A DNA stretch of 64,000 nucleotides, taken from Streptomyces yangpuensis. GTDB taxonomy: Bacteria > Actinomycetota > Actinomycetes > Streptomycetales > Streptomycetaceae. The DNA is taken from assembly GCF_001005295.1 (NCBI RefSeq), contig NZ_LBMK01000003.1:1202527-1266526 (forward strand). Direction: 5' to 3'. Positions 17,686 to 53,557 of this stretch are shown here, in pieces (the stretch's first letter is position 1; each line of letters opens with the position of its first letter). Under the pieces are notes generated by a model that ran no database searches, was not told where the DNA came from, and saw nothing but the letters and a program-made list of their open reading frames with translations. Made by a program: the position numbers and the translations under genes.

Positions 17686-18528
17686 GTGATCGACACCCCG
17701 GCGAACGCCGACGACGCGGCCGCGCTGAACCGCGCCATGTGGGAGACCCGCGCCCGGGTCCACGGCTCGACGGCCACCGACCGGTTCTACGACGTGGAGT
17801 CCTTCGTCGCGGGACGCGAGACGCTCCACCTGCTGGAACGCGAGCTGGTCGGCGACGTCGCCGGCAAGGACCTGCTCCACCTCCAGTGCCACTTCGGCAT
17901 GAACACCCTGAGCTGGGCCCGGCGGGGAGCCCGCGTCACCGGCGTCGACTTCTCGCCGACGGCCGTCGAACGGGCCCGCCGGCTGGCCGAACGGACCGGC
18001 CTGCCCGCCACCTTCGTCGAGGCCGACACCCAGCGGCTCCCCGACAGCCTGGCCGGCCGCTTCGATCTCGCTGTCGCCACCTACGGGATCCTGTGCTGGA
18101 TCGGCGACCTCGACGCCTGGATGCGCGGCGCGGCCATGGCCCTCAGGCCGGGCGGCAGCCTGGTCCTGGTCGATCTGCACCCGGCCTTCCAGACCGTCGC
18201 CACGCTCGAACCGCTCGTCGTCGACTGGCCCTACGGCGGCGGCGAGCCCCACCGCGACACCGTCACCGGGACCTACGCCGAACCGGGCCTCAGCCTGCCG
18301 GCGCAGGACGTCATCGAATACCCGCACTCCCTCGGGGAGATCGTCACCGCGGCCGCGACCGCCGGCCTGACGGTGAAACACCTCGGCGAGCACGTCGCCG
18401 CGGAGTTCGACCCCCGCGGCATCCTGCACCAGGGACCGGACGGCCTGTACCGGCTGCCGTTCGGTGACTCCCACCTCCCCGTCATGTACTCACTGGTCGC
18501 CCGCGCCCCGCATCCGCACGCCTCCTGA
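17686..18528 (+). CDS. Class I SAM-dependent methyltransferase
   Basis: A 280-residue enzyme with motif I LLHLQCHFGMNTLSWAR (the HLQCHFG version found in a distinct actinobacterial group), VTGVDFSPTAVERA as the acidic loop, and MALRPGGSLVLVDLHP as post-III. GTG 17686 is chosen over the ORF's upstream ATG because CATCCT lies 7 nt before it as a leaderless -10. Substrate unknown. Confidence 0.82.
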   Translation: MIDTPANADDAAALNRAMWETRARVHGSTATDRFYDVESFVAGRETLHLLERELVGDVAGKDLLHLQCHFGMNTLSWARRGARVTGVDFSPTAVERARRLAERTGLPATFVEADTQRLPDSLAGRFDLAVATYGILCWIGDLDAWMRGAAMALRPGGSLVLVDLHPAFQTVATLEPLVVDWPYGGGEPHRDTVTGTYAEPGLSLPAQDVIEYPHSLGEIVTAAATAGLTVKHLGEHVAAEFDPRGILHQGPDGLYRLPFGDSHLPVMYSLVARAPHPHAS

Positions 18529-18625
18529 GGAGGCTCCGGCCGGTTACGGCCGACACACCCCGCCGCGGGACTGTGGTGCCCGCGCACATGGGAACGGGCC
18601 ACCGGCGTGGCCGATGATTCCCGCC

Positions 18626-19426
18626 ATGACGAGCGCGAGCGCCATCCCTCCCGGCTCCCACGGGACAGCAGCCGCCGCAGGCATCGACCTGGCGGGCCGT
18701 ACCGCCCTGGTGACCGGAGCCGGGAGCGGGATCGGGCGGGCGTGCGCCCTCGCGCTCGCCGGTGCCGGGGCCCACGTGCACGTGGTGGACATCGACGCCG
18801 CGGCGGCCGCGTCCGTCGCCGCGTCGACCGGCGGCCGGGCCCACGTCGTCGACCTGGCCCAGGCCGCACCCGTCGGGGAACTCCCCGCAGAGGTCGACAT
18901 CCTGGTCAACAACGCCGGGCTCCAGCACGTCGCGCCGCTGACCGACTTCCCGCCGGACCGGTTCGAACTCCTCCAGCGGGTGATGGTCCACGCCCCGTTC
19001 CTGCTGCTCCGCCGGGTCCTGCCGTACATGTACGCCCGGGGCTGGGGCCGCGTCGTCAACATCTCCAGCGTGCACGGCCTGCGCGCCAGCGCGTACAAGG
19101 CGGGCTACGTGACCGCGAAGCACGCCCTCGAAGGGCTGAGCAAGGTCACGGCCGTCGAGGGCGCCCCGCACGGGGTCACCAGCAACTGCGTCAGCCCCGG
19201 CTACGTCCGCACACCGCTGGTGGAGCGGCAGGTCGCCGCCCAGGCGGCCGCCCACGGCCTCGACGCCGACCGCGTCGTCTCCGAGGTGATGCTCGGCCGC
19301 TCCGCCGTCAAACGGCTGATCGAACCGGAGGAGGTGGCCGCAGTCGTCCTCTGGCTCTGCGGTCCCCACACCGGCCACCTCACCGGCGCATCCCTCCCCC
19401 TGGACGGCGGCTGGACGGCCACGTGA
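18626..19426 (+). CDS. Short-chain dehydrogenase, 3-hydroxybutyrate dehydrogenase-like
   Basis: A 266-residue classical SDR: TGxxxGIG as ALVTGAGSGIGRA, LVNNAGLQHVAPL, catalytic Ser in VVNISSVHGLRAS and YxxxK in YVTAKHALEG, ending GASLPLDGGWTA. The LQHVAP and SVHGL segments resemble bacterial D-3-hydroxybutyrate dehydrogenases, so that activity is a reasonable guess, but other ketone substrates cannot be excluded. Transcribed alone. Confidence 0.82.
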   Translation: MTSASAIPPGSHGTAAAAGIDLAGRTALVTGAGSGIGRACALALAGAGAHVHVVDIDAAAAASVAASTGGRAHVVDLAQAAPVGELPAEVDILVNNAGLQHVAPLTDFPPDRFELLQRVMVHAPFLLLRRVLPYMYARGWGRVVNISSVHGLRASAYKAGYVTAKHALEGLSKVTAVEGAPHGVTSNCVSPGYVRTPLVERQVAAQAAAHGLDADRVVSEVMLGRSAVKRLIEPEEVAAVVLWLCGPHTGHLTGASLPLDGGWTAT

Positions 19427-37723: not shown

Positions 37724-38602
37724 ATGACATACCGGGGGAACGACGGAGTGCCGGGTGACGCCGGCTCAGGCAGCGGAGCGCCGCAGCCGGACCGCACCTG
37801 GAACTCGGGGCTTTCGGGCGGGGAGTTGGCCGCGATCAGCGGGGTCGGGTTCGAGCCGGTCGGGCAGGTGCTCGGCACAGCTGTCTACAACATCGGGTAC
37901 ACGGGTGTCTGGGGCTGCCCCGGCAACTGGTCGGTCACCGACGACAACAAGGCGGTGCCGTCGTCGAGATGGACGTCCTCCCTGTCGCAGCTGGTGCGGA
38001 CGATGTACGCGGCGCGCAGGTTGGCCGTGGCGCGCGCGGTGGCCGAATGCGGGGCGCTCGGCGGCGACGGGATCGTCGGTGTGGAGCTGCGTGTCGGTGA
38101 ATTCCCGGCAGGAGGAATGGAGTTCACCGTGCGGGGCACTGCCGTGCGGGCGCGGTCGCGGATTCGGCCGCGTGCGCCGTTCACCTCCCACCTGGGCGGC
38201 CGGGACTTCGCCGCGCTCATCGGGTCGGAGTGGGTGCCCGTCGGACTCGCCTTCGGCATCGCCTTCGCGATCCGCCACGACGACTGGCGCACCTCCCTGC
38301 GGATCCCCTCCGGCGCCAGGAACCAGGAAGTCGACGGCTACACCCAGCTGATCGGCCACGTCCGCCGGGAGGCGCGCAGGCAACTGGCCGTCGACACGGC
38401 GCAACACGGCGCTGACGGGGTGGTGGTGGACGACGTGGAGTTGCGTGTGGGCGAGAGCGAGTGCCCCTCCTACGGGTCGACGCGCGACGTCACCGCGGAG
38501 GCGGTCTTCGTCGGCACCTCGATCGCCCGGTTCGGGCGCTCCGGACGGCCCGCGGGCGCCAGACCGCCACTGACCATCATGAGACTGGAGCGAGAGCGCT
38601 GA
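37724..38602 (+). CDS. YbjQ-type (heavy-metal-binding-domain) protein, two repeats
   Basis: A 292-residue cytoplasmic protein with two copies of a YbjQ/DUF74-like fold: FEPVGQVLGTAVYNIGYTGV, then GGDGIVGVELRVGEF and FTVRGTAV; and VPVGLAFGIAFAIRHDDW, then GADGVVVDDVELRVG and VTAEAVFVGTSI. It is first in a three-gene operon, with one base before the next start. Metal binding is only the family label; function unproven. GGGAG precedes the ATG. Confidence 0.7.
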   Translation: MTYRGNDGVPGDAGSGSGAPQPDRTWNSGLSGGELAAISGVGFEPVGQVLGTAVYNIGYTGVWGCPGNWSVTDDNKAVPSSRWTSSLSQLVRTMYAARRLAVARAVAECGALGGDGIVGVELRVGEFPAGGMEFTVRGTAVRARSRIRPRAPFTSHLGGRDFAALIGSEWVPVGLAFGIAFAIRHDDWRTSLRIPSGARNQEVDGYTQLIGHVRREARRQLAVDTAQHGADGVVVDDVELRVGESECPSYGSTRDVTAEAVFVGTSIARFGRSGRPAGARPPLTIMRLERER

Positions 38603-38603
38603 G

Positions 38604-39485
38604 ATGACCGAACGAACGGGGCGGGACATGAGCGGGGAAGCCGTGCAGCCGGCGGACGAGGGTGCGGCCGAGGATGCCATGCGCCGGCTCGCACGGCTCC
38701 AGCCGGGGGAGAAGGGTTCGCCGGGGGAGAAGCGCGGGATGTTCACCTCGGACCTGACGGTGAACGAGTTCCTGCTGGTGCGTGAGGCCGGCTTCCGCCC
38801 GCTCGGTCTCGTCCTCGGTTCCTCCGTCCACCATGTCGGCCTCCAGCTCGGCCGGTGGTCGAAGAACCAGGAGCTGACCAAGCTGTCGCAGGCCATGTAC
38901 CAGGCGCGCGAGTTCGCGATGAGCCGGATGGAGGCCGAGGCGAGCGCTCTGGGGGCGGACGGGATCGTGGGCGTGCGGCTGGACATCGAGTTCAAGGAGT
39001 TCGGGTCGGACATCGCCGAGTTCATCGCGGTCGGCACGGCGGTGAAGGCGGACGGTGCGGACCCGGGACCGGCCGGGACGTGGCTCAACAACAAGGGCAA
39101 GCCGTTCACGTCGGACCTGTCCGGCCAGGAATTCTGGACGCTGATCCGGGCCGGGTACGCGCCCCTGGACCTGGTCATGGGGTCGTGCGTCTACCACGTC
39201 GCGCACCAGCGCTTCACCCAGGTGCTCAGCAACGCCGGCCGCAATGTCGAGATCGAGCCGTTCACCCAGGCCCTGTACGAGGCGCGCGAACTGGCCATGA
39301 GCCGGATGCGGGCGGAGGGCGAGGTCCTGGACGCCGAGGGCATCGTGGCGGTGCAGCTGAAACAGCACTCGCACACCTGGGGAAGCCACACCACCGAGTT
39401 CTTCGCCATCGGGACGGCGGTGCGCCCGCTGTACGACGACCACGTCATCGACCGGCCGGCCATGGTGGTGAGCCTCGATGCCTGA
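38604..39485 (+). CDS. YbjQ-type protein, two repeats (paralogue of the preceding gene)
   Basis: A 293-residue protein with two repeats: MFTSDLTVNEFLLVREAGFR, then PLGLVLGSSVHHVG, GADGIVGVRLDIEF and FIAVGTAV; and PFTSDLSGQEFWTLIRAGYA, then PLDLVMGSCVYHVA, AEGIVAVQLKQHS and FFAIGTAV. It clearly arose by duplication with the upstream gene, so the operon carries four copies of the fold. His-rich loops (VHHVG, KQHSHTWGSH) may be ligand sites. It overlaps the next gene by 8 nt. Confidence 0.7.
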   Translation: MTERTGRDMSGEAVQPADEGAAEDAMRRLARLQPGEKGSPGEKRGMFTSDLTVNEFLLVREAGFRPLGLVLGSSVHHVGLQLGRWSKNQELTKLSQAMYQAREFAMSRMEAEASALGADGIVGVRLDIEFKEFGSDIAEFIAVGTAVKADGADPGPAGTWLNNKGKPFTSDLSGQEFWTLIRAGYAPLDLVMGSCVYHVAHQRFTQVLSNAGRNVEIEPFTQALYEARELAMSRMRAEGEVLDAEGIVAVQLKQHSHTWGSHTTEFFAIGTAVRPLYDDHVIDRPAMVVSLDA

Positions 39486-40303: not shown

Positions 40304-41695
40304 ATGTCCGACACATCCGGAGCCTCCACCGGGGGCCCCATGCGCTTGCGCGACTTCCGACTCCTGCTCGCCGGAGCCGCCACGGGACAGTTCGGCGCTC
40401 AGGTGACGCTGGTGGCGCTGCCCCTCGTGGCCGTTCTCGAACTCGAGGCCCCCGCCTTCCAGGTGGGCCTCCTGACGGCCGCCGAAACCGCCGCCTTCCT
40501 GCTCGTCGGGCTGCCCGCCGGTGCGCTCACCGACCGCATGCGCAAACGGCCCCTGATGATCCGCGCGGACCTGGTGCGCGCCGTGGCCATGCTGAGTATT
40601 CCCGCCGCCGCGCTCGCCGACGTCCTGACCATGGTCCAGCTGTACGCCGTCGCGCTCGTGACCGGCGTGGCGACCGTGTTCTTCGACGTCGCCCATCAGA
40701 GCTACCTGCCGCAGATCCTGCCCCGTGACCAACTGGTGGCCGGGAACGGCGCGCTGGAGACGGTCCGGTCCACCGCCCACGTCACCGGCCCCGGCATCGG
40801 CGGCGGACTGGTCCAGCTCGTCGGAGCGCAGTTCGCGGTCCTCGTCGACGCCGTCGGTTACGTGCTCTCCGCCCTGTTCCTGCTCCGCGTGAAGCAGACC
40901 GAGGAGACACCCGAGCGCGCCCCTGGTGGGTCCCTGCGCAAGGAGATCGGCGAGGGCGTCCGCTTCATCTTCGGGCACCCCCTGCTCCGCGTCATCGCCT
41001 TCACCACCGGCCTCGCCAACTTCTGCACGGCCGTCCTCATGGCGACACAGACCGTGCACCTCGTCCGCGTCGTCGGCCTGGAGGCCGGCGGCCTCGGTCT
41101 GGTGCTCTCCGCGTCCGCCGTGGGAGGTCTCCTCGGCGCCCTGTGCGCCGGACGTCTCGCCGCCCGGCTGGGACAGGCCCGGGTCATCCTCCTGTCCCTC
41201 CTCGTGACCGGCCCGTTCGCGCTGCTGTGGCCCCTGTCCGGTCACGGTGTCACCGGCGCGGTCCTGTTCGCCGGCGGTTCCGCGGTCGTCTCCTTCGGCG
41301 CCGTCGTCTACAACGTCGCCCAGGTCAGTTTCCGCCAGGGGATGTGCCCGCCACGGCTCCTCGGCCGGATGAACGCCACCCTGCGCTTCCTCATGTGGGG
41401 CACCCTGCCCCTCGGCGCGCTCCTCGGGGGAGCCCTCGCCCAGTCCTACGGGTCGCGCACGGCCCTCGCCTGGTGCGCCGTCGGCATCCTCGCCGTCCCC
41501 CTGCCGCTGCTGCTCTCCCCCCTGCGCCGGATGCGGGACCTGCCCGCCGCGCAGGACGACGGCCACGACGGCCAAGGCGGCCACGACGGCCACGACGACC
41601 AAGGCGGCGCCGTCGGCGCCGCCCCCGGAACCCCACGGGGCACCGCCGCCGCCACCGACGGCGACGAACGCCCGGCCCCCGCACCCACGGGCTGA
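40304..41695 (+). CDS. MFS transporter with His/Asp-rich tail, first gene of the NRPS operon
   Basis: A 463-residue EntS/MFS_3-like exporter: FRLLLAGAATGQFGAQVTLV, AGALTDRMRKRPLMIRADLV as the loop 2-3 motif, VAGNGALETVRSTAHVTGPG and about 12 TM helices. The C-terminal cytoplasmic tail (about residues 413-430) is DDGHDGQGGHDGHDDQGG, a His/Asp/Gly-rich repeat coded by 9-bp DNA repeats. Its place at the head of the NRPS genes suggests product export. It precedes the C-domain gene by 58 nt. Confidence 0.82.
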   Translation: MSDTSGASTGGPMRLRDFRLLLAGAATGQFGAQVTLVALPLVAVLELEAPAFQVGLLTAAETAAFLLVGLPAGALTDRMRKRPLMIRADLVRAVAMLSIPAAALADVLTMVQLYAVALVTGVATVFFDVAHQSYLPQILPRDQLVAGNGALETVRSTAHVTGPGIGGGLVQLVGAQFAVLVDAVGYVLSALFLLRVKQTEETPERAPGGSLRKEIGEGVRFIFGHPLLRVIAFTTGLANFCTAVLMATQTVHLVRVVGLEAGGLGLVLSASAVGGLLGALCAGRLAARLGQARVILLSLLVTGPFALLWPLSGHGVTGAVLFAGGSAVVSFGAVVYNVAQVSFRQGMCPPRLLGRMNATLRFLMWGTLPLGALLGGALAQSYGSRTALAWCAVGILAVPLPLLLSPLRRMRDLPAAQDDGHDGQGGHDGHDDQGGAVGAAPGTPRGTAAATDGDERPAPAPTG

Positions 41696-41753
41696 TGCCG
41701 GCAGCCACCGCCACACCATTCCCCCCGACCGCGGACACGACGAAGAGGACGAC

Positions 41754-43079
41754 GTGCTCAGCATCACCAGTCAGTACCTGGCCCGCTACCGACGCCTCGT
41801 CGGCGACCGGTCCGACACCCTGCTGCCGGTCACGGGAGCACAGCGCCGCTTCGTGCTGGTGCGGTCCCTCGACCCGTCGGGACGCCCCGACCTCGTACCG
41901 ATGTTCTTCGCGTTCCCGTACGGAACCATCGACCCCGAAAGGCTGCGGGCCGCCGCCCGAGGACTCGCGGCCCGGCACACCGCCCTGCGCTCGCGCGTCG
42001 GCGTGGTACGCGGCACACCCGTCCTCAGCGTCCCCGCCGACCCGGACGCCGTCGTGACCCGGCCGGACCTCCTGCCGGGGGAGTCACCCGCCGACGCGAT
42101 CCGCCGCGCACTGGCCTCCTGGGACGCGCAGGGCCCCGCCATGCGGCTTCTCCTCGTGAGCGACGAGGAACGCGAGGAGGACATCCTCGCCGTCGTCCTC
42201 GACCACGCCGCCTGCGACGGCCGTTCGCTCGCGCGGATCGTCGACGAACTCGGCGCCGCCTACGACGAGGACGACCCCGCAGCCCCGACCGCACCGGAGG
42301 AGACGCACGCCGAACTCGCCGCCTACCGGGACGCCGTCCTCGGCCAACTCGCCGCCGAGGAGAGGGCGGAGACGCCCGAGGCAGCCGCGTACTGGGCGGA
42401 CCGGCTGCGCGCGATCGACACCCACGCCCCGGCACCCCGCCCGGCCCGCGTACCCGAAGGCGCACGGCCCAGCGGCGCCGCGCAGGCCCGGCTGCCCGCA
42501 CACGAGGGCGGCGGCGTGTCCTTCCCCGGACTGCTCGACGCCTGCCGCGCCGCGACCGGCGAGCTGTACGGCACCGACCGCACGGTCCCGCTCGGCTACC
42601 CGTGGGGCGGCCGCCCCGCAGGAGCGGAACCGGTCATCGGCTGCTTCCTCAACACCCTCGTCTTCCCGGTCGACACGGGCCGCGGCTCAGGCCCCCGACC
42701 CGGCCCCGGCCCCGGCACCGGCTCGGAGGGGACGGCCGACGCCTGGTGGGACGACCTCGACCGGGCCGACGTACCGTTCGACGCGGTCGTCACCGCCGTA
42801 CGCTCCGCCGGCTCGCCCTGGACCGGAGGCCTCGACGGCCTGCTCACCGTGGACGACGACACGCGCCGCCCGCCGCTGAAGCTGGCCGGAGTCGAGGGAC
42901 GCGAGATCCACGTCGACGGCAGGCCGGTCCGCGCTCCCTTCGCCCTGTCCGTCACGCAGGGAGCGGAGACCCGTCTGCGGATGGTCTGGGACCGGGCGGT
43001 CCTCGACGACGAGACCGCACACCGGGCCTTCGACGCGCTCACCCACGCGCTGCGCCCCTCGGACCCCACCGTGCGGTGA
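41754..43079 (+). CDS. Stand-alone NRPS condensation domain
   Basis: A 441-residue free C domain: LPVTGAQRRFVLVRSLDPSG as C1 region, the HHxxxDG motif as DHAACDG (about residues 144-150; catalytic second His and Asp kept, first His replaced by Asp), EAAAYWADRLRAID and LGYPWGG, then IGCFLNTLVFPVD as later C motifs. No A or T domain is attached. It could condense an acyl starter or act between the split modules. AAGAGGACGAC precedes GTG 41754. Confidence 0.85.
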   Translation: MLSITSQYLARYRRLVGDRSDTLLPVTGAQRRFVLVRSLDPSGRPDLVPMFFAFPYGTIDPERLRAAARGLAARHTALRSRVGVVRGTPVLSVPADPDAVVTRPDLLPGESPADAIRRALASWDAQGPAMRLLLVSDEEREEDILAVVLDHAACDGRSLARIVDELGAAYDEDDPAAPTAPEETHAELAAYRDAVLGQLAAEERAETPEAAAYWADRLRAIDTHAPAPRPARVPEGARPSGAAQARLPAHEGGGVSFPGLLDACRAATGELYGTDRTVPLGYPWGGRPAGAEPVIGCFLNTLVFPVDTGRGSGPRPGPGPGTGSEGTADAWWDDLDRADVPFDAVVTAVRSAGSPWTGGLDGLLTVDDDTRRPPLKLAGVEGREIHVDGRPVRAPFALSVTQGAETRLRMVWDRAVLDDETAHRAFDALTHALRPSDPTVR

Positions 43080-43464
43080 AACCCCCGCTGCCCGGACATC
43101 CGGTCGCCGCCGACGGCCCCCGCGACGCAGCGGCACCACCACCCCGCCCCGGAACGGCGCCCGCCCGCCGCCGCTCCCGTCACCCGATCGGCCCACGCCT
43201 CGCCGGCGCCCCGGCCGCCCCGGGGCCCGTACCGGCCCGCGGCCCTCGCGCCCGGCACTCACGCGCAGCCGCGCGACACTCACCGGCGCGGCCCGACGCG
43301 CCCCGGCGCCCGGCGCATCCCCCGCCGCCGCGCCCCCAGCCTCCCCCCACGGCAATCCCCCCACGCAGAAAACGGCACCGCGCGACCCGCGGCGCCGCCC
43401 GCACCTCCGCCGGACACGACCGTGACCGGCCCGGAGACCGACCCGACAACCTCAGGGATCGCCC
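43080..43464. other. C-rich, gene-free spacer inside the NRPS operon
   Basis: This 385-bp segment between two co-oriented NRPS genes has no plausible ORF. On the plus strand it has far more C than G and long C runs (for example CCCCCAGCCTCCCCCCACGG), unlike neighbouring coding DNA. An RNA copy would be largely unstructured and C-rich, like Rho-loading sites. No promoter could be assigned. Confidence 0.5.
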
Positions 43465-46400
43465 ATGTTCGCCCTCTCCTCCTCGCAGGAGATCGTCTGG
43501 CTGCACGAGCAGATGCAGCCCGGCAGTCGCGCCTACAACTTCACCGCATCACTCGACCTGTGGGGCACGCTCGACACCGAGGCACTGCACCGGGGGCTCG
43601 CCGCCACCCTGGCACGCCACCCCGGCCTGCGCCTCGAACTCGTCGCCTCCAGCCGATCCGTACCGGCGCAGCAGGTCGCACCGCGGTGCGCCCCGAGGCT
43701 GCACACCGTCGACCTCAGCACGGAGGAGGACCCGGAGGCCGCCTTCGCGCGTCTGCTGCGCACCGAGGCCGAGACCCCGCTCGACACCTTCGAGGCACCG
43801 CTCATCCGCTGGACGCTCGTACGACTGGCCGAGCGCCACCACCGGCTCGTCCACGTCGAGCACCACCTGATCCACGACGGACACTCCTTCGCGATCCTGC
43901 TCGACGACGTCTTCCGCGTCTACCGCGCCCACGTCCTCGGCGAGACCCTGGAGCTCCCGCCCGCCTCGTCCTACGCCGACCACGTCCGGGAGCGGGCCGA
44001 AGCCGCGTACGCCCCCGAGTCGCTCGACTTCTGGCGGGCCGAACTCCGCGACCAGCAGCACGACCTGCCGCTCCCGGGCCTGACCCGCCCCGGTGCCCGT
44101 CGCCGGCACCACGGCGGCCAGCTGCGCCAGACGATCGGTGCCGATCTCGCCCAACGCCTGCGCGCCCACGCCCGTACGCGCGGCCTCACCCCCTTCGCCA
44201 CGCTCCTCGGGCTGTTCGCCGAGCTCCTGCGCCGGCACAGCGGCCGCTCCCGCATGGTCATCGGCACCGCCGTCGGCAACCGCCCCCTCGGCTACGAGGA
44301 CGCCGTGGGCATGTTCGTCAACACCATCCCGCTGCCGCTCGCACTGGACGCCGCTGCCCCCGCCCAGGACACCATGGACGAGGTCACCGACACCCTCATC
44401 CGGGCCCTGCCGCACCAGGACGTGCCCGTCCAGGAGCTGACCCGGGCCCTGGGCATGCACACCTCCGGCGCCGACAACCCGCTCTTCTCGGTCATGTTCA
44501 GCGCCCACGACGCACCGCTGCCCGAGATCGACGTTCCCGGCCTCGACATCACCCTCTTCGAAGGCTTCAACACCGGCACCACCCGTTTCGACCTCGATGT
44601 GGTCCTGCTCCCGGACGACCGGCGCGGCGTCACCACGCGTCACGGCGCGCCCGGCATGACGCTGGTCTGGGACTACGACATGGACCTCTTCGGCGAGGAC
44701 GTGGCCCGCCTCGTCTCCGGCCGCTTCCTCGACCTGCTGCGCGCCTATCTCGACAGCCCCGTCACGCCGCTGGCCGACCTCGCCCCGACCGCCGTCGAAC
44801 CGCCCGCCGAGGCCCCGCCCGTCCCGGCCGACCGCGATCCGCTGGATCCGGTGGCCGCGCACCACCCGTCGCTGCCCGCCCTGCTGTGCGGCGCCCGCCG
44901 CCTCACCTACGGCGAACTCGACGAGCGCGTCGGCGCGCTCGCGGAGCGGTTGAAGGCCGCGGGCGTGACCGCCGGCCGGCCGGTGGCCACGGTGCTGCCC
45001 CGGGGGACCGACTCGGTCGTCGCCCTGCTCGCGTGCCTGCGGACCGGCGCCGTCCACTGCCCGCTGTCCCCGTCCGACCCGCCGGCCCGGCTCGGCCTGC
45101 TCCTGGAGCGGCTCGCCCCCGCGCTGGTCCTGACCGGTGACAGCACCCCGGACCTGCCGGAAGGACTGCCGACCGCCCGGATCGACGCCCCGGTGCTGCC
45201 GCCCGCGCGCGACGGCGCCGTACTGCCCGCCGCCGCGTACGTCATCCACACCTCCGGCTCCACCGGGACGCCCAAGCCGGTCGCCGTCGGCCCCGCCGCC
45301 CTGGTGCACCACATGACGGCGACCGCCGACCGGTTCGGCCTCACCACCTCCGACCGGGTGCTGATGTTCGCGCAGCCGTCCTTCGACGTGGCGCTGGAGG
45401 AGGTACTGCCGACCCTGCACGCCGGTGCGTGCCTGGTCCTGCCCGAGTACGAGGTGCCCACGGGCGCGGAACTCGCCGAACTGCTCGCAGCGGCCCGGGT
45501 GACCGTCGCCAACCTGCCCACCAGCTACTTCCTCGCCACCCGCGAGGACCTGCGCGCCGCACTGCGCGACGAGAGCTGGGCGCCCAGGCTGCTGGTCCTC
45601 GGCGGCGAACGCCTTCCCGCGGAGGCGCTGAGCGGCGTCCTCGCCGACACCGACGCCACCGTGCTCAACGTGTACGGGGTCACGGAGGCGGCCATCAGCT
45701 CGACCGTCCACGAGATCTCCCGCGACGCCCTCGTCGCAGGCACCGAGATCCCCCTGGGCACCGAGCTCCCGGGCGAGCGGGTCCACGTACTGGACGCACA
45801 CCACCGCCCGCTGCCGACCGGGGCGGTCGGTGAACTCGCCGTCGCCGGGCCCGGCCTCGCCGAGGGCTACCCCGGCAACGCGGACGCGACCGCCGCCCGG
45901 TTCGTCACCGTCGACGCGCTCGACGGAGAGCGCGTCTACCTCACCGGCGACCTCGGCTACCGCGGCCTCGACGGGCTGCTGTACTTCCTCGGGCGGCGCG
46001 ACAACCAGATCAAGCTGCGCGGTCACCGCATCGAGCTGGAGGAGATCGAGGCGGCGGCGTCCGCGGCGCTGGGCGGCCGCTCCTGCGCGGTCGTCCTGGA
46101 CCGGGAGAGCGCGGGCGGGCCCCGGCTCGTCGGCTTCCTCGAAGGCGCCGAGAACGGAGCCGACGGCCCGGCCTTCGACGAGAAGGCTCTCCACGCCGAG
46201 CTGAGCCGCCGTCTGCCCGGCCCCCTCGTGCCCGCCCGGTGGGCACCCCTGGACAGCATGCCGACCCTCGCAGGCGGCAAGCCCGACCGTGTGGCGCTGT
46301 CCCGCCGGGCGGCGGAGCTGGACCCCGAGGACACCGCCACGCCCGGGCACGAGGCCGGGCACGAATCCGAGGCCGTGCCCCGCACAGCCGCAGCCGCAGC

Positions 46401-46707
46401 CGCAGGCACCGGCACCGAGCACGAGCCGACCACCGCCGCCGCGCCCGTCGATCCGATGACGGCCTTGCTCACCGAAGGCTGGCGCAAGGTCCTCGGCCAC
46501 AGCCGGTTCGACGCCCGTTCCCACTTCTTCCACAGCGGGGGCCACTCCCTGCTGGCCGCCGAGCTGGCCGCCTGGCTGGAGCCCCGGCTGGGCACGCGCC
46601 CGCCGCTGAAGGTGCTCTTCCGCAACCCGGTGCTCGCCGACCAGGCCACCGCCCTCGCCGCCACCGCCCCCGCTCTCGCCGCCGCCTCGTCCTCAACGGA
46701 GTCGTGA
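43465..46707 (+). CDS. NRPS C-A-T protein
   Basis: This 1080-residue synthetase has C (about 1-420, HHLIHDG at about 133), A (about 455-960; HTSGSTGTPKPVAV, NVYGVTE, YLTGDLGYR, GRRDNQIKLRGHRIELEEIE, catalytic Lys in LAGGKPDRVA) and T (about 1005-1075, FHSGGHSLLAAE with the phosphopantetheine Ser). Reading the A pocket by eye against GrsA gives D-V-E-N-V-G-V-I-S-K, whose DxENxGxI pattern resembles ornithine or N5-hydroxyornithine activating domains; this is a tentative reading. Its stop shares one base with the next start. Confidence 0.9.
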   Translation: MFALSSSQEIVWLHEQMQPGSRAYNFTASLDLWGTLDTEALHRGLAATLARHPGLRLELVASSRSVPAQQVAPRCAPRLHTVDLSTEEDPEAAFARLLRTEAETPLDTFEAPLIRWTLVRLAERHHRLVHVEHHLIHDGHSFAILLDDVFRVYRAHVLGETLELPPASSYADHVRERAEAAYAPESLDFWRAELRDQQHDLPLPGLTRPGARRRHHGGQLRQTIGADLAQRLRAHARTRGLTPFATLLGLFAELLRRHSGRSRMVIGTAVGNRPLGYEDAVGMFVNTIPLPLALDAAAPAQDTMDEVTDTLIRALPHQDVPVQELTRALGMHTSGADNPLFSVMFSAHDAPLPEIDVPGLDITLFEGFNTGTTRFDLDVVLLPDDRRGVTTRHGAPGMTLVWDYDMDLFGEDVARLVSGRFLDLLRAYLDSPVTPLADLAPTAVEPPAEAPPVPADRDPLDPVAAHHPSLPALLCGARRLTYGELDERVGALAERLKAAGVTAGRPVATVLPRGTDSVVALLACLRTGAVHCPLSPSDPPARLGLLLERLAPALVLTGDSTPDLPEGLPTARIDAPVLPPARDGAVLPAAAYVIHTSGSTGTPKPVAVGPAALVHHMTATADRFGLTTSDRVLMFAQPSFDVALEEVLPTLHAGACLVLPEYEVPTGAELAELLAAARVTVANLPTSYFLATREDLRAALRDESWAPRLLVLGGERLPAEALSGVLADTDATVLNVYGVTEAAISSTVHEISRDALVAGTEIPLGTELPGERVHVLDAHHRPLPTGAVGELAVAGPGLAEGYPGNADATAARFVTVDALDGERVYLTGDLGYRGLDGLLYFLGRRDNQIKLRGHRIELEEIEAAASAALGGRSCAVVLDRESAGGPRLVGFLEGAENGADGPAFDEKALHAELSRRLPGPLVPARWAPLDSMPTLAGGKPDRVALSRRAAELDPEDTATPGHEAGHESEAVPRTAAAAAAGTGTEHEPTTAAAPVDPMTALLTEGWRKVLGHSRFDARSHFFHSGGHSLLAAELAAWLEPRLGTRPPLKVLFRNPVLADQATALAATAPALAAASSSTES

Positions 46708-48629
46708 TGATCCAGTCCCCGACCGCAGTGGTCCTTCCCGCCGTGTCCCTCGACAGCGCCGCCGCGCCGAGCATCGCGTACGGCCCCTCCGCCGAACCGA
46801 CCCGTGTGCTCGCCCGCTTCGAGGACTGGGCCCGGCGCGCCCCGCAGGCCCCGGCGGTGATCGACGCCACCCGGACCTGGACGTACCAGGACCTCGACGC
46901 GGCGGCCGCGCGCGTCGCGGCCGCCCTCGGCGACCGCGTCCGGCCCGGCGACCTCGTCGGCGTCTGTCTCGACCGTTCCGCCGCCCTGGTGGTGACCGCC
47001 GTCGCCCTCGCCCGGATCGGCGCCGTCTACCTGCCGCTCGGCCCCCGCCCCGGCGAACGCCGTACCCAGGCCGTCACCGAGGACCTCGACGTGGCCTGCC
47101 TCATCGGCGACCCCGGCGTCCTGCCCGAGGCACACCGCGGCGGGGAGCACACCCCGCTGCCGCTGCCCACCGACGGCGTCAACGCCCCCGCCACCGCGGT
47201 CGCGGCCTTCAGCGACGCCGTCCGCGGCGCGCGGCGCGCGCCCGAGGGCTCCCTGTACGCCGTCCTCACCTCCGGCTCCACCGGCCGCCCCAAGGCGGTG
47301 GCCGTGGCCGAGCCCTCGCTGTCCGTCGCCCTGGACTGGTACCGGGCCGAGACCGGCCTCGCCCCCGGCGACCGCCAGTCGCTGCTCATCGGCGTCGCGT
47401 TCGACCCGCACCTGCTGGAACTGTGGGCCGCCCTGACCTCGGGAGCCGCCCTCGTCCCCGCGCCGGACGACACCCGCTGGGACAGCCGCGTCCTCACCGA
47501 CTGGTGGCGTGACACCGCCCTCACGCACGCCGTGGCGGCCACCCCCACCGTCGAGCCGCTCCTGGACCGGCCGTGGCCGCAGGGCCTGAAGCTGCGTCAC
47601 CTCGTCGTCGGCGGCGACCGCATGCGCCGCCGGCCCGGCGCCGACGTCACCGCCACCGTCCACAACGCCTACGGCCCCGCCGAAGCCACCGTCCTCACCA
47701 CCGCACACACCATGCGCGGCACCGACCCGGAGGCCGGCGACCAGGCCCCGCCCCCCATAGGCACCGCGCTGCCGGGCGTCACCCTCGTCGTCACGGACGA
47801 GGAGGGCCGCCCCGTCGCCCGCGGCCAGGAAGGCGAACTGCGCGTCGGCGGTCACTGCCTGGCCCTCGGCTACCTCGACCCGGAACTCACCGCCCGCCGC
47901 TTCACCGCGCCCCCGCGGGAAGCGGAGCTGCCCGCGGTCGACCGCCTGTACCGCACCGGTGACCGGGTACGGATGAACGCCGACGACAGCCTCGACTTCC
48001 TCGGCCGCCTCGACGACCAGGTGAAGATCAGCGGAGTACGGATCGAACCGGTCGAGGTGGAAGCCGCCTTCGAGCAGGACCCCCGCGTGCGCACCGCCGT
48101 GGTCACCGTGCTGCGCGACAGCTCCGGCCACGGCCGCCTGGTCGCCCACGTACGGGCCGCCGACGGCGCCGACCCGGCGCCCGGGGAACTCCTCGACGCG
48201 GTCCGCGCCTGGCTCCCCGAGCAGGCCGTCCCCACCGCAGTACGGATCGTCGACGGCTTCCCGCTCGACGCCAACGGCAAGGTGGACCGGCCGGCCCTGG
48301 CGGCCCTGGCCCGGTCCGAGGCCCCGGAGACGCACCGGACCGCCGCCGCGGGCGCCCCGGCCGACGCCGACACCGATGCCCGCGCCACGCCCACCGAGCG
48401 GCTCGTGCTGACGACCGTGCGCGACCTCCTCGGCCGGCCCGCCACCGCACTGGCCGACAACTTCACCGACGCCGGCGGCACTTCCATCATCGCCGCACGC
48501 CTGCTGGCCGCCGTCGAAGCGGAGACCGGCGTACGCCTGCGCGCCCCCGAGCTGCTGCGCAGCCCCGACCTGCGCACCTTCGCCGCCCTCGTCGAACAAC
48601 GCCGGACCCCGCGCCCGGAAGGAGCCTGA
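46707..48629 (+). CDS. NRPS A-T didomain
   Basis: A 640-residue protein with no C domain. A domain at about 25-535: LTSGSTGRPKAVAV near residue 187, AFDPHLLELWAALTSG (A4), HNAYGPAEATVLTT (A5), YRTGDRVRM, GRLDDQVKISGVRIEPVEVE and Lys in LDANGKVDRPAL. T domain with FTDAGGTSIIAARL (Ser about 591). The pocket read by eye is D-P-L-A-V-G-A-V-L-K, with no confident match known to me. The start overlaps the previous stop (TGATG), giving tight coupling. Confidence 0.9.
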   Translation: MIQSPTAVVLPAVSLDSAAAPSIAYGPSAEPTRVLARFEDWARRAPQAPAVIDATRTWTYQDLDAAAARVAAALGDRVRPGDLVGVCLDRSAALVVTAVALARIGAVYLPLGPRPGERRTQAVTEDLDVACLIGDPGVLPEAHRGGEHTPLPLPTDGVNAPATAVAAFSDAVRGARRAPEGSLYAVLTSGSTGRPKAVAVAEPSLSVALDWYRAETGLAPGDRQSLLIGVAFDPHLLELWAALTSGAALVPAPDDTRWDSRVLTDWWRDTALTHAVAATPTVEPLLDRPWPQGLKLRHLVVGGDRMRRRPGADVTATVHNAYGPAEATVLTTAHTMRGTDPEAGDQAPPPIGTALPGVTLVVTDEEGRPVARGQEGELRVGGHCLALGYLDPELTARRFTAPPREAELPAVDRLYRTGDRVRMNADDSLDFLGRLDDQVKISGVRIEPVEVEAAFEQDPRVRTAVVTVLRDSSGHGRLVAHVRAADGADPAPGELLDAVRAWLPEQAVPTAVRIVDGFPLDANGKVDRPALAALARSEAPETHRTAAAGAPADADTDARATPTERLVLTTVRDLLGRPATALADNFTDAGGTSIIAARLLAAVEAETGVRLRAPELLRSPDLRTFAALVEQRRTPRPEGA

Positions 48630-48630
48630 C

Positions 48631-50559
48631 ATGACCGCGCCCCACCTGACCGTGCCCGCCACGACCGCACCCGCCACGACCGCGCCGGACCTGGCCGTGC
48701 CCGACGCGATGACGACCGCGACCGGCACGACCCCCGGCAGCCCGCTGCCCGCCGCCCCGGCCCCCGGCAGGGCGACCACCCTGCCCGCCCTCGTCGCCCG
48801 GCAGGCCGAGCTCACCCCCGACGCCCTCGCCGTCGTCGACGGCGACACGACCCTCACCTACGGCCGGCTCATCCAGGCCGGCCACGCCCTCGCCGCCCGC
48901 CTGCGCGAACACGAGGTGGTCCGCGGAGACCGGGTGGCACTGCTGACGGCACGCTCGTACCGGACCGTCGTGGCTCAGCTCGGGCTGTGGCTGGCCGGAG
49001 CCGTGTGCGTGCCCCTCGATCCGGCCCAGCCCAGGCCGCGCACCGAGGCGATGATTGCCGATGCGGAGGTGACGCTCACCCTCGGCGATGCGAAGCTGCT
49101 GGACGCCGCCACCCTCCCCGGCCCCGTACTCACCCTGCCCGAGGAGCCGCTCACGAGCGGCCGTCCGGTCGACGAGTCCGACCCGGACAGCCCGGCGTTC
49201 ATCATGTTCACCTCCGGCTCGACGGGCCGCCCCAAGGGCGTCCTCGTGCCGCACGGCGCCATCGCCGAGCTGGTCACCGCGCCCGACTACGTCACCCTCA
49301 ACGGCCGCGACCGGGTCCTGTTCCACTCGCCCATGACCTTCGACGCCTCGACGTTCGAGGTCTGGGTCGCACTCGCGGGCGGTGCCGCGGTCGTCGTCTG
49401 CACCGAACAGCGGCCTTCCCTGGAGGACCTCGCCCGGCACGTCGAACGGCACGGCGTGACGGTGGCGTTCTTCACCACCGCCCTCTTCCACCAGCTCGCC
49501 GCGCGCCGCTCCCGGGTCTTCGCCCAGCTCCGCTCGGTCGTCGTGGGCGGCGAGGCGATGGCCGCCGCCCAGGCCCGCGAGGTGCTCACCGCCTTCCCCT
49601 GGCTGGAGCTCGTCAACGGCTACGGACCGACCGAGACGACCACCTTCGCGACCGCCCACCGGGTCACGGTGCGGGACTGCGAAGGGCCGGTACCGATCGG
49701 CAGGCCCATCGCCGGGGCCACGGCGTACGTTCTCGACGCCGCCGGGCGCCCGGTCGCCGAGGGCGAGCGCGGCGAGCTGTGGATCGGCGGCAGCAGGCTC
49801 GCCCACGGGTACACGGGCCTGCCCGGACTCACCGCCGAACGGTTCGTCGAGCATCCCGCAGCCGACGGCGGGCGGCTCTACCGCACGGGTGACATCGTCT
49901 CCCTCCGCCCCGACGGCATCCTGCAGTTCCACGGACGCAACGACGACCAGGTGAAGGTGCGGGGCTTCCGCATCGAACCCGCCGAGGTCGAACACGCTCT
50001 CCGGGAGCAGCCGGACGTGGACGACGCCGCCGTGACCGTCGACGGCGCGGGCACCCCCGAGGCACGCCTCGTCGCGTTCGTCGTGGCCGCGCCCGGCCCG
50101 GTGCCCACCGGAGCGGCGCTGCGCGAGCGGCTGACCGCAGCCCTGCCCGCCCACCTGGTGCCCGACACGGTCACCGTGCTGGAACGGCTGCCCCTCACCC
50201 CGGCCGGCAAGGTCGACCGGCGTGCCCTCACCGGACAGGTACGCACCGCCGAGAGCGGCCCCTCCGGCGAGCCGGCCGCGATGACCCCGCTGGAACAGGC
50301 CGTGGCCGACGTGTGGAGCCAGGCACTGGGCACCGAGGTGACCCGCGCCGACTCCGAGTTCCTCCTCCTCGGCGGCCATTCGCTGCTCGCCCTCGTCGTC
50401 ACCGAGGACCTGCGCGAGGAACTCGGCGTGGAGATCGCCCTCGCCGACTTCTTCGCCGCCCCGACCGTCGCCGCCCAGGCCGCGCTGGTCGAACGCGCCC
50501 TCCTGGACGCACACCGAGACCTCCACCCCGAGACACCGGAGCACAGCGATGCCCACTGA
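48631..50559 (+). CDS. NRPS A-T didomain, probably branched-chain aliphatic substrate
   Basis: A 642-residue protein with an Ala/Thr/Pro-rich N-terminal linker of about 50 residues, then an A domain (FTSGSTGRPKGVLV near 193, TFDASTFEVWVALAGG, NGYGPTETTTFATA, YRTGDIVSL, GRNDDQVKVRGFRIEPAEVE, LTPAGKVDRRAL) and a T domain (LLLGGHSLLALVV, Ser about 582). The pocket read by eye, D-A-F-F-V-G-G-T-F-K, is close to codes reported for Val and Ile. It starts one base after the previous stop and overlaps the next gene by 11 nt. Confidence 0.9.
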   Translation: MTAPHLTVPATTAPATTAPDLAVPDAMTTATGTTPGSPLPAAPAPGRATTLPALVARQAELTPDALAVVDGDTTLTYGRLIQAGHALAARLREHEVVRGDRVALLTARSYRTVVAQLGLWLAGAVCVPLDPAQPRPRTEAMIADAEVTLTLGDAKLLDAATLPGPVLTLPEEPLTSGRPVDESDPDSPAFIMFTSGSTGRPKGVLVPHGAIAELVTAPDYVTLNGRDRVLFHSPMTFDASTFEVWVALAGGAAVVVCTEQRPSLEDLARHVERHGVTVAFFTTALFHQLAARRSRVFAQLRSVVVGGEAMAAAQAREVLTAFPWLELVNGYGPTETTTFATAHRVTVRDCEGPVPIGRPIAGATAYVLDAAGRPVAEGERGELWIGGSRLAHGYTGLPGLTAERFVEHPAADGGRLYRTGDIVSLRPDGILQFHGRNDDQVKVRGFRIEPAEVEHALREQPDVDDAAVTVDGAGTPEARLVAFVVAAPGPVPTGAALRERLTAALPAHLVPDTVTVLERLPLTPAGKVDRRALTGQVRTAESGPSGEPAAMTPLEQAVADVWSQALGTEVTRADSEFLLLGGHSLLALVVTEDLREELGVEIALADFFAAPTVAAQAALVERALLDAHRDLHPETPEHSDAH

Positions 50560-53557
50560 CGCCGACTCCGCGGCCCACGACGACCGCCGGCAACTCCAGC
50601 GGGAACTGCTGCGCCGGGCCCGCGCCGGAACGGCCCGGCGCCCGACGGCCGGACCCGCCACCACCCCGGCGCCCGCCACCGCCCCGGAGGCCGCCACCGC
50701 CGGTGAGGCCGGCGGCGTCCCCGAGGCAAGAAGCGGGCCGGAGGCCGGAAGGGTCCCGCTGTCCCGCGCCCAGCGCCGCATGTGGCTGATGGAACGGCTC
50801 GGCGGCGCGGGCGACTCCTACCACGTACCGTTCGCCACCCGGCTGCGCGGCCCGTTCGACGTGGCCGCTCTCGCCACCGCCCTCACGTCCCTGGTGGCCC
50901 GGCACTCCATTCTCCGCACCCGCTACGCGGAGCACGAGGGCGAACCCTACCAGGAGGTGCTCCCCACACCGCGGACGGTCCCCGTGCACGTCGTCGACAC
51001 CGACCCGGCGCAGGCGCCCGCACTGCTGCGGCGCGAGAGCGCCCGGCCGTTCGACCTCGCGGCCGCGGACGCCGTACGTGCCCTCGTCCTGCGGCACGGA
51101 CCGCAGGACCACACCCTGCTGCTGACGTTCCATCACATCGCCATGGACGGCGCGTCGCTGGAGACCGTGGCAGCCGAACTGGCCGTGCTCTACGCGTCCG
51201 CCACCGGCGCGGCGACCCCGTCGGCCCTCGCCGAGGCCCCGCAGTACGCCGACCACGCGCGCCGCGAGCACGACGGCCTGCCGGGCTTCGGGACGGAACT
51301 GAAGCACTGGAGCGACCTGCTGGCCGACGCCGCCCCGCCGCGCCTGCCCCGGCGGGCGGGGGACGCGCCGCAGACAGCCGTGCGTCCCGCGGGCGTGCAC
51401 ACCGTGCCGCTGGCGCCGGCCGTCCCCGACGCCCTGCGGGCGCTCGGCGCGCAGCGGCACGCCACGCTCTTCGCCGTGACCCTCACCGCGGCCTTCGCCG
51501 CACTGCACCGTCTCACCGGCGACGAGGACCTCGTCATCGGCGTGGCCGGCACCCACCGCAGCGGAACCGCCATGCGCGGTCTGGTCGGCCTGTGCGTCAA
51601 CACCCTGCCGGTACGCGTGGACGTCTGCGGCGCCCCGACCTTCGCGGAGCTGCTGCGACGCGTGAACGAGGCACTCCTGGAGGCCCAGCGCCACCGGCAC
51701 GTCCCCTTCGACCTGGTCCTCGAACGCCTCGGCGCCGGGGCGCGCGGAGCCGACGGCACCGCGCTGGTCCGCGTCACCTCCGACGTCCTCGGCGAGCCGA
51801 CCGTGCTCCGGCTCCCCGGCACGTCGGCCGAGTACGTCGACGTCCCCTCCGACGGCGCGAAGTTCACCCTGTCGTACGGCCTGGCACTCGGCGACGCCGA
51901 GCAGCCCCGGGCACTCGTCCAGTACGACGCGAACACCCTGGACGGCACCGTCGCCGAGGCGGCCGTACGGGACTACGCGGCGCTGCTCCACGCGGTGGCG
52001 GCCGACCCCGAACTGGCCCTGAACGAGCTGCCTGTCCCCGGCCCGGAGCACGCCGCCGCCACCCGGGACGGCTCCGCTCCGGACGACGGTGGCCACCCAG
52101 CCGCGCAGGCCCTGCGCGCCCATCCGGACGTCGCCGACGCCGAGGTGGTCCGGCCCGGGCAGGGGCCGGCCGTCGCCTACGCCGTCCTGCGCGACAGCGT
52201 CGGCCCGTCCGGCCACGAACTGCTGGGCCTGCTGCGCCGGTCACTCCCGCCCGAGCACGTACCCGCCGCCGTCACGCTGCTCGACGCACTGCCGCGTACG
52301 GCCGCCGGGCCGCTCGATCCCGCACGGCTGCCCGGGTCGTGCGGGCCCTCCGCGCCGTCCGGCCCGAGCGCTCCCGCCGATCCCCGGGCCACAGCGGTCA
52401 CGGAGGCTTTCACCGCCGTGCTCGGTCTCGCCCCGACGCCGGACGACGACTTCTTCGCCCTCGGCGGCCACTCCCTCAAAGCCGTCCAGCTCGCCGAACG
52501 GCTGCGTACGGACCTCGGACTGCCGCTCACCGGACTCGACGTGCTCCAGGCCCGCACACCGCGGGCACTGACCGCCCTCCTCGGCGAACGGGCGGTACGG
52601 CAGAGTGCCGCGAAGGCCGCGAGCAGGCCGGCCCCCCGCTCCCGGGACGTCCGCCCGGGCACGGTACTGGTCACCGGGGCGACGGGCGGCGTCGGCGCCT
52701 TCGTCGTACGTGAACTCGCCGCACAGGGGCGTCCCGTACTGGCACTGGCCCGGCCCGAGTCCGCGCATCTGATCGCCGTCGAGGGCGTCGACGTCATCGA
52801 GGGCGACCTCGGCGACCCGGACGGGCTCCGGGACGCCGTCGCGCAGGCGGACGCGGTCGTCCACGCCGCCTGCACCTTCACCCGGCACGACGTGGACCTG
52901 GCGGCGACGCGGGCCATGGTCGACGCTTGGCGGCGCGGACCGTTCGTCTTCGTCAGCAGCGTCGACGCCTACGGCCACCCCGGTACGGAGCGGGTCGCCG
53001 AGGAGTCGGCGCCCCACGAGCCGGTCAGCCCCTACGGGAAGGCCAAGCTCGACTGCGAGGCCATGGTGCTGGGCGCTGCGGGCACCGGGGGACGCGGCGG
53101 CGCGAGCGCCGTGCGGTCACCGATCGTCTGGGGTGCGCACGACCGGCTGCGCGAGCAGCTGCGCTGGGGCGCCATCGGCACGCTCTACCAGGCCGCCCGC
53201 GAGGGCCGGCCGATCGAACTGCCGCGTCCCGGAACCGGCGGACACGCCTGGTACGGAGCCGCCTGGGTGCACGCGGCCGCCCTGGCCCGCGCGGTGGCCG
53301 AGTGCCTGGACCGGCCCGTTCACGGAGTCGCCAACGCGTGCAGCGGTCACGTGTCCTGGCGCGACCTCGCCCAGGACCTCACGGAACTCCTGGGCACCGA
53401 AGCGGAGTTCCGCGAGACGGGAACGGTTCCCCGGGACCTGGACCACCGCTGGCACTACGACAGCAGTCGGCTGGCCCGCCCCCTGCGGCCCCGCCCCGGC
53501 GAGGACCGGCGGACCGTACTGGCGGAGATGATCGCCGCCATGGCCGCCACGAGCTGA
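50549..53557 (+). CDS. NRPS C-(A_sub relic)-T-SDR termination protein
   Basis: A 1002-residue protein. After a disordered Ala/Pro-rich leader comes a C domain (about 66-500, FHHIAMDGAS near 195). Then only the C-terminal subdomain of an A domain follows (about 515-600): the normal GKxDR segment reads PRTAAGPLDPARL, so the catalytic Lys is gone and the A core is missing. A T domain (FALGGHSLKAVQL, Ser about 640) is followed by an extended SDR (about 704-1002; VLVTGATGGVGAF, FVSSVDAYG, SPYGKAKLDCE with YxxxK). The SDR may release the chain reductively or modify it. The last T must be loaded in trans. Confidence 0.88.
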   Translation: MPTDADSAAHDDRRQLQRELLRRARAGTARRPTAGPATTPAPATAPEAATAGEAGGVPEARSGPEAGRVPLSRAQRRMWLMERLGGAGDSYHVPFATRLRGPFDVAALATALTSLVARHSILRTRYAEHEGEPYQEVLPTPRTVPVHVVDTDPAQAPALLRRESARPFDLAAADAVRALVLRHGPQDHTLLLTFHHIAMDGASLETVAAELAVLYASATGAATPSALAEAPQYADHARREHDGLPGFGTELKHWSDLLADAAPPRLPRRAGDAPQTAVRPAGVHTVPLAPAVPDALRALGAQRHATLFAVTLTAAFAALHRLTGDEDLVIGVAGTHRSGTAMRGLVGLCVNTLPVRVDVCGAPTFAELLRRVNEALLEAQRHRHVPFDLVLERLGAGARGADGTALVRVTSDVLGEPTVLRLPGTSAEYVDVPSDGAKFTLSYGLALGDAEQPRALVQYDANTLDGTVAEAAVRDYAALLHAVAADPELALNELPVPGPEHAAATRDGSAPDDGGHPAAQALRAHPDVADAEVVRPGQGPAVAYAVLRDSVGPSGHELLGLLRRSLPPEHVPAAVTLLDALPRTAAGPLDPARLPGSCGPSAPSGPSAPADPRATAVTEAFTAVLGLAPTPDDDFFALGGHSLKAVQLAERLRTDLGLPLTGLDVLQARTPRALTALLGERAVRQSAAKAASRPAPRSRDVRPGTVLVTGATGGVGAFVVRELAAQGRPVLALARPESAHLIAVEGVDVIEGDLGDPDGLRDAVAQADAVVHAACTFTRHDVDLAATRAMVDAWRRGPFVFVSSVDAYGHPGTERVAEESAPHEPVSPYGKAKLDCEAMVLGAAGTGGRGGASAVRSPIVWGAHDRLREQLRWGAIGTLYQAAREGRPIELPRPGTGGHAWYGAAWVHAAALARAVAECLDRPVHGVANACSGHVSWRDLAQDLTELLGTEAEFRETGTVPRDLDHRWHYDSSRLARPLRPRPGEDRRTVLAEMIAAMAATS

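Follow-up and report, generated by a model that had tools for sequence, protein, structure and literature searches.

The locus described here raises the question of which product can be expected from a set of nonribosomal peptide synthetase (NRPS) genes whose domains do not add up to complete modules. The window, a stretch of 64,000 nucleotides from Streptomyces yangpuensis that spans positions 1202527-1266526 of its contig and has a GC content of 73%, belongs to a genome of 7.65 Mb in 14 contigs, in which 28 Condensation matches were found genome-wide. Six plus-strand genes between 40304 and 53557 encode an MFS exporter, a free condensation (C) domain, a C-A-T protein, two A-T proteins and a C-(A stub)-T-SDR protein (Table 1), all of them where a first-pass annotation of the sequence had placed them. 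Pfam returned the same domain tally as that annotation, i.e., three C, three adenylation (A) and four carrier (T) domains together with one A_C stub and one SDR domain, distributed over five NRPS genes. Neither an MbtH-like nor a thioesterase gene is apparent in the first-pass annotation or in the gene list of the window. The last T domain does lack an A domain of its own, as no AMP-binding match was obtained with Pfam for the C-(A stub)-T-SDR protein, only the AMP-binding_C stub. The coding nature of the six genes is backed by codon-position GC and domain matches, with GC3 values of 0.90-0.93 in five of them and 0.87 in the first A-T gene, which was scored from an over-long start. The MFS gene (counted from 40304) is separated by 58 bp from the free C domain and the latter by 385 bp from the C-A-T gene, followed by an overlap of 4 bp, a spacing of 1 bp and an overlap of 11 bp between the remaining genes. 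Because of the 385-bp gap, a single transcript for all six genes is a candidate only, and the set may be transcribed as two units.

Table 1. Features of the NRPS locus and its surroundings (positions in the window).
Feature	Position	Strand	Description
MFS exporter	40304..41695	+	Pfam MFS_1/MFS_3; opens the gene row in 26 loci; alternative GTG start at 40289
Free-standing C domain	41754..43079	+	Pfam Condensation, weak, 36.4 bits; DHAACDG at 42201-42221
Inverted repeat CCGCG-CGACC-CGCGG (CCGCGCGAYCCGCGG; CCGCGCGACCCGCGG)	43378..43392		Candidate regulatory site of the four-gene NRPS block; fixed place
C(urea)-A-T, predicted Arg module	43465..46707	+	Condensation + AMP-binding + PP-binding; EHHLIHDG at 43858-43881
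First A-T didomain protein, predicted to load Phe	46704..48629	+	AMP-binding + AMP-binding_C + PP-binding; OmnD-like place by letter order
Second A-T didomain, predicted Val module	48631..50559	+	AMP-binding + AMP-binding_C + PP-binding; code DAFFVGGTF; OmnE-like place
C-(A_C stub)-T-SDR (P0006), predicted last condensation and reductive release	50549..53557	+	Condensation + AMP-binding_C + PP-binding + Epimerase/SDR
A_C stub, residues 516-594	52094..52330	+	Pfam AMP-binding_C 520-587; A10 lysine missing
Extended-type SDR domain	52661..53557	+	Pfam Epimerase; TGATGGVG, VSSVDAYG, YGKAK; Foldseek matches to extended SDRs
Perfect 15-bp stem with 4-nt loop	53601..53634	+	Candidate terminator without T tail; 43 bases past the operon stop

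That the six genes form one biosynthetic system, as had also been proposed, is supported by their relatives. When the last protein (P0006) was searched against genome contigs, 60 stretches matched and 40 loci were found to encode a relative. All six genes occur in the same order in 26 of these 40 loci, which rules out a chance assembly of the gene set; among the 26, L033 contains one extra gene, and L028 and L033 are cut at the MFS end. The rest comprise L031 with four genes and L032 with a fragment, both located at contig ends, and 12 loci with general NRPS matches only. Across 199 genomes of the genus, the free C domain gave some match in 148 and a match with E <= 1e-50 in 19, its own genome included, the next value being 1.6e-20; these genomes overlap with those of the P0006 search, and the two counts are not independent. 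From the 18 other genomes with a close free C match, 10 regions were taken, one of which is a duplicate, leaving out G073, where the match is split, and seven more. The cluster of L030 lies on the 1.07 Mb plasmid SNP1 of Streptomyces nigrescens (AP026074.1); among 72,556 plasmid records, no other had a single place covering at least 80% of P0006.

In an unrooted tree of 37 C-A-T proteins, the window adjoins loci of Streptomyces virginiae and S. amritsarensis. The tree contains a group A of 16 rows (100/100) and a group C, in which the seven loci with an extra gene lie on one side of a branch (100/100) and L071 sits on a long branch, while the remaining loci, referred to as group B, are not one clade. 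The flank genes of the window fall in no flank family common to at least three loci, which supports the six genes as one system, with little upstream DNA available for most loci. An extra flank gene common to the relatives was rejected, since families present in at least three loci are mostly limited to seven related group B loci (one family also took in L033, and a general SDR occurs in L019, L024 and L028); this test is weak upstream, where most loci have less than 1 kb. The next plus-strand gene after the cluster encodes a flavin amine oxidase, and upstream of the cluster, at 37724-39485, lie two adjoining genes that match YbjQ (putative heavy-metal-binding), the second with two matched stretches.

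The gap between the free C domain and the C-A-T gene contains the inverted repeat listed in Table 1. With at most two mismatches, and beginning 86-96 bp ahead of the C-A-T start, it is present in 29 of 30 group A and group B sequences (the exception being L028), a non-independent test, as the repeat had been spotted visually in the alignment and the subsequent count used overlapping, related sequences; at that place it is absent in all seven group C loci. A loose form of the pattern was found 18 times in the whole window, as opposed to 23.3 expected, and since it is no commoner than chance, the fixed place alone is telling. Upstream of the MFS gene, the best versions in 25 sequences show 3-6 mismatches. 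The conserved position suggests that the four NRPS genes from C-A-T onwards may have a control point of their own. A small gene inside the 385-bp gap was considered and discarded, as the better-conserved last ~110 bp contain frame-breaking indels and look non-coding. A scan for sigma-70 promoters and T-tail terminators returned none of either, with 0.1 and 1.6 expected, respectively. Around the stem past the operon, the segment 53585-53650 folds with -41.3 kcal/mol compared to -23.0 (sd 3.1) in 200 shuffles (z -5.9), none of which was as stable.

The domain counts lead to a product class. Four T domains correspond to four residues, three C domains to three bonds and three A domains to three kinds of residue, so that one residue must be reused. 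Antipain (Phe-CO-Arg-Val-argininal) and MAPI (Phe-CO-Arg-Val-phenylalaninal) are small peptide aldehydes that block protein-cutting enzymes, and their structures imply that one A domain serves two T domains. The first-pass annotation had regarded the product as not predictable; for the product class this did not hold, as the counts match a peptide of four residues in which one kind occurs twice. We consider it highly probable that the cluster belongs to the antipain family and makes a ureido tetrapeptide aldehyde with reductive release by the SDR domain. The exact residues, namely Phe-CO-Arg-Val followed by argininal and/or phenylalaninal as in antipain and MAPI, are our favoured assignment, which we hold with fair confidence.

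Maxson et al. reportedly studied the antipain / deimino-antipain cluster in 2016. It is listed as MIBiG BGC0002051 (PMC10548850), and discrete NRPS parts, reductive release and a ureido bond, all predicted for the window, are features that the two would share. Among the clusters reported, one of S. virginiae THA-960 is labelled Antipain_29 (PMC13273461), one of S. nojiriensis shows 66% similarity to deimino-antipain (PMC8466323), and one of LN699 matches antipain at 100% in MIBiG, with mass spectrometry giving putative antipain, leupeptin and MAPI congeners (PMC11212599). An NRPS cluster of strain H27-S2 (S. antarcticus) is described as "identical to antipain" (PMC12451607). Our locus L012 comes from H27-S2, and its six proteins share 78-88% identity with those of the window (best segments). 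As only one sequence of the H27-S2 genome is close to the free C domain (84%, E 1.8e-223; next 31%, 4e-16), the reported antipain cluster is very probably L012.

The omn cluster of Streptomyces sp. 1647, with five NRPS genes and three A domains, is described as a homologue of the clusters for deimino-antipain and chymostatin; Arg is putatively the residue of module OmnB, and OmnE sets the penultimate residue, which is Val, Ile, Leu or Met (PMC12783407). As far as omn is described there, the window resembles it in the five NRPS genes, the three A domains and the terminal short extended-SDR, as well as in the predicted Arg module B, penultimate module E and terminal module F. Unlike the cluster of the window, omn includes a TetR regulator, omnC for a homologue of an arginine cyclase, and omnG, an additional SDR (PMC12783407); neither a TetR nor an SDR gene was found among the ten neighbouring genes scanned, and an SDR-like gene at 18464-19426 is some 21 kb upstream of the cluster. 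A cluster of known product with the same gene set, which the first-pass annotation had named as a finding that would overturn its account, thus appears to exist in substance, by analogy with the antipain/omicsynin family.

For the assembly we propose the following order. The first A-T protein would load Phe onto its own T domain, and the C-A-T protein would load Arg, its C(urea) domain joining both amino groups via a carbonyl to give Phe-CO-Arg. Val would be loaded by the second A-T protein and linked to Arg by the free C domain. The last condensation, by the C domain of the C-T-SDR protein, would then attach the chain to whichever residue the fourth T domain carries; this T domain has no A domain of its own, and the A domain for Arg or that for Phe would charge it in trans. 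Finally, reduction of the thioester by the fused SDR domain would set the peptide free, as argininal in the case of antipain or phenylalaninal in that of MAPI, and the MFS protein would export it.

Several motifs bear on these steps. EHHLIHDG, found in the C domain of the C-A-T protein, occurs only once in the whole genome of the window, and EHHL[IV]HDG is shared by all 28 C-A-T orthologues. According to Yu and van der Donk, EHHXXHDG is the signature of ureido-forming C domains and is missing from other MIBiG C domains, and in ureido clusters the outer residue usually comes from the loading A-T and the inner one from the C(urea)-A-T (PMC11212132). The signature of a ureido-forming C domain is therefore located in the C-A-T module, as an antipain-type cluster requires. 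The free C domain has DHAACDG in place of HHxxxDG, with Asp at the first His and the second His and the Asp retained, and this departure speaks against the antipain reading. This second His and Asp are found in all 27 sequences, the first position being Asp in 25 and Glu in two, and the Gly is replaced in L033. Formation of the Arg-Val amide bond is proposed for this domain by elimination. In the last protein, the C motif HHxxxDG is present in 27 of 28 sequences.

The A codes, read in the GrsA register, are DVENVGVIS (A1), DPLAVGAVL (A2) and DAFFVGGTF (A3), each followed by an A10 lysine. Judged against the Val code, A3 is Val-like; LgrA, whose first module takes Val, is among the solved structures nearest to it. 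The codes of A1 and A2 are largely conserved across the orthologues and match no citable Arg or Phe code, which also counts against the antipain reading; going by gene order, A1 would be specific for Arg and A2 for Phe. By analogy, the group C genes after the exporter can be read as omnA-F, with C-A-T as B (Arg), the dehydrogenase as C, the A-T genes as D and E, and C-T-SDR as F, which fits the functions stated for the Omn proteins. In L033 (6331-10507), the second and third A codes are DPMLSGHVL and DAMLVGASV, unlike those of the other 27, and these deviating codes make a different product likely for this locus.

The terminal T domain is followed by a short (~300 aa) domain of the extended-SDR type, as indicated by a PF01370 match, the motifs TGxxGxxG and YxxxK, and the fold. 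The SDR motifs TG[AG]TGGVG, VSSVDAYG and YGxxK are present in all 28 sequences. A Foldseek search with the modelled residues 480-1002 listed extended SDR epimerases first, and the NRPS T-R didomain 6vtj at rank 12 with a TM score of 0.40 and an rmsd of 13.7, a poor superposition. PF07993, the canonical NRPS thioester reductase, was not among the 11 Pfam families obtained for P0006 at E <= 0.001. The R domain of OmnF is likewise described as an extended SDR of ~300 residues, unlike other NRPS R domains, and its deletion in the omicsynin cluster led to C-terminal carboxylates (PMC12783407). By analogy with OmnF, the SDR domain of the window may work like a thioester reductase; SDR release, like the ureido signature, is published for relatives.

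Two loci differ at this end of the cluster. In L076 (G012:C1:2663500-2683000), the last NRPS gene loses similarity past the C domain, and the stub, T and SDR parts were not found in the stretch examined, so that it appears to be a natural variant without the SDR release domain. L071 (G105:C1:1441000-1460500) contains the exporter, free C domain, C-A-T, dehydrogenase and first A-T, followed by other parts instead of A-T and C-T-SDR, i.e., judged by eye, a SARP-type regulator-like gene, other NRPS parts and a PKS start; it is possibly a hybrid variant.

The A_C stub of the last protein lacks the A10 lysine in all 27 aligned stub-bearing sequences. In the model of residues 480-1002, the mean pLDDT is 76, with values mostly of 80-94 in the stub and poor linkers. 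The dN/dS values for group A/group B, calculated as mean dN over mean dS (Nei-Gojobori) from 105 and 66 non-independent pairs, respectively, are 0.42/0.36 for the stub, 0.36/0.37 for C, 0.21/0.20 for T, 0.23/0.24 for SDR and 0.86/0.49 for the linkers. With slightly different limits, the stub shows 0.39/0.34, whereas the corresponding subdomain of the three active A domains ranges over 0.20-0.36/0.22-0.27. The stub appears to be under purifying selection, less so than its active counterparts, and in group B the margin to the linkers is modest. Four of the seven group C loci (L033, L067, L068 and L072) lack it, which counts against a needed role, and L069 and L070 retain it without the lysine. 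We suggest only tentatively, and with more doubt than conviction, that the stub has been kept by selection for docking or positioning and enables A domains of other proteins to charge the T domain; two of these A domains would compete in trans and set the fourth residue, the Arg or Phe aldehyde. A fungal precedent exists in the siderophore NRPS SidD/Nps6, in whose module 2 the A domain is truncated at its N-terminus and dead, and the adjoining T domain is described as being charged by the A domain of another module (PMC10192304). The fourth T domain of the window similarly adjoins a truncated, dead A domain. As described there, the loading domain SidD A1 is part of the same protein, whereas that of the window must act from another protein and for a different product.

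The reading as antipain or MAPI has to be weighed against a capreomycidine variant within the same family, in which a cyclase gene located elsewhere would account for cyclisation of one arginine or of both. Chymostatin contains capreomycidine and uses Phe twice, and chymostatin-type clusters follow the same logic as the window, which, unlike them, is missing the candidate cyclase gene. L033 and L067-L072 possess a gene for an FAD dehydrogenase-like protein of 385-393 aa between C-A-T and the first A-T, where omnC would fall by letter order; OmnC is described as a homologue of the arginine cyclase AnpI, and omnC is additional to the antipain-like clusters reported (PMC12783407). The same account has Cap at the C-terminus of omicsynins E and ties AnpI to antipain biosynthesis itself (PMC12783407), which sits badly with the notion that no cyclase gene means antipain. 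The extra gene of group C is acyl-CoA dehydrogenase-like, its sub-cut-off NCBIfam matches include L-prolyl-[carrier protein] dehydrogenase, and by analogy we infer that it may be the omnC/anpI arginine cyclase. This cyclase is, reportedly, an FAD-dependent dehydrogenase-cyclase (Cui et al. 2021). However, the gene is missing in the window (best tblastn E 0.54) and in the DNA, mostly with little upstream sequence, examined around 29 other group A and group B loci. A hidden cyclase elsewhere in the genome appears unlikely, as the best match there has 38% identity and stands among 31 matches, as expected for acyl-CoA dehydrogenases. Since the flavin dehydrogenase gene of the seven farther loci is missing here, the product is probably free of capreomycidine, and we regard the cyclised variant as unlikely.

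Shorter products have also been considered, in that the chief product would be a smaller aldehyde or its cyclised pyrazinone of the argvalin/phevalin type, with the tetrapeptide as one of several. Putative pyrazinones of the same amino acids are reported from LN699 extracts (PMC11212599), and the deletion of the OmnF R domain gave tripeptides that skip OmnB (PMC12783407). We nevertheless judge this to be quite improbable, given that conservation of the C(urea) motif and of all four T domains extends to 28 of 28 orthologue sets, or as many of them as were available, which would be needless for a dipeptide. A siderophore or an unrelated peptide with a superficial likeness to antipain is scarcely credible: the MFS protein does match the model of the enterobactin exporter EntS, though with 90.4 bits far under the cut-off of 324, no hydroxamate or catechol families matched among the ten neighbouring genes scanned, and the C(urea) signature, the gene order and the SDR fusion fit antipain.

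The cluster is real and conserved, very probably joins the antipain family and is ordinary in kind, the stub and the palindrome being side points. A cluster considered unpredictable thereby becomes a testable product class, that of serine/cysteine protease inhibitors. The dead but constrained stub, with its absence from four of the seven group C loci, provides a natural set for testing the in-trans charging of a carrier without its own A domain. If the extra gene of group C is an arginine cyclase, gene content would separate Arg-type from capreomycidine-type members of the family.
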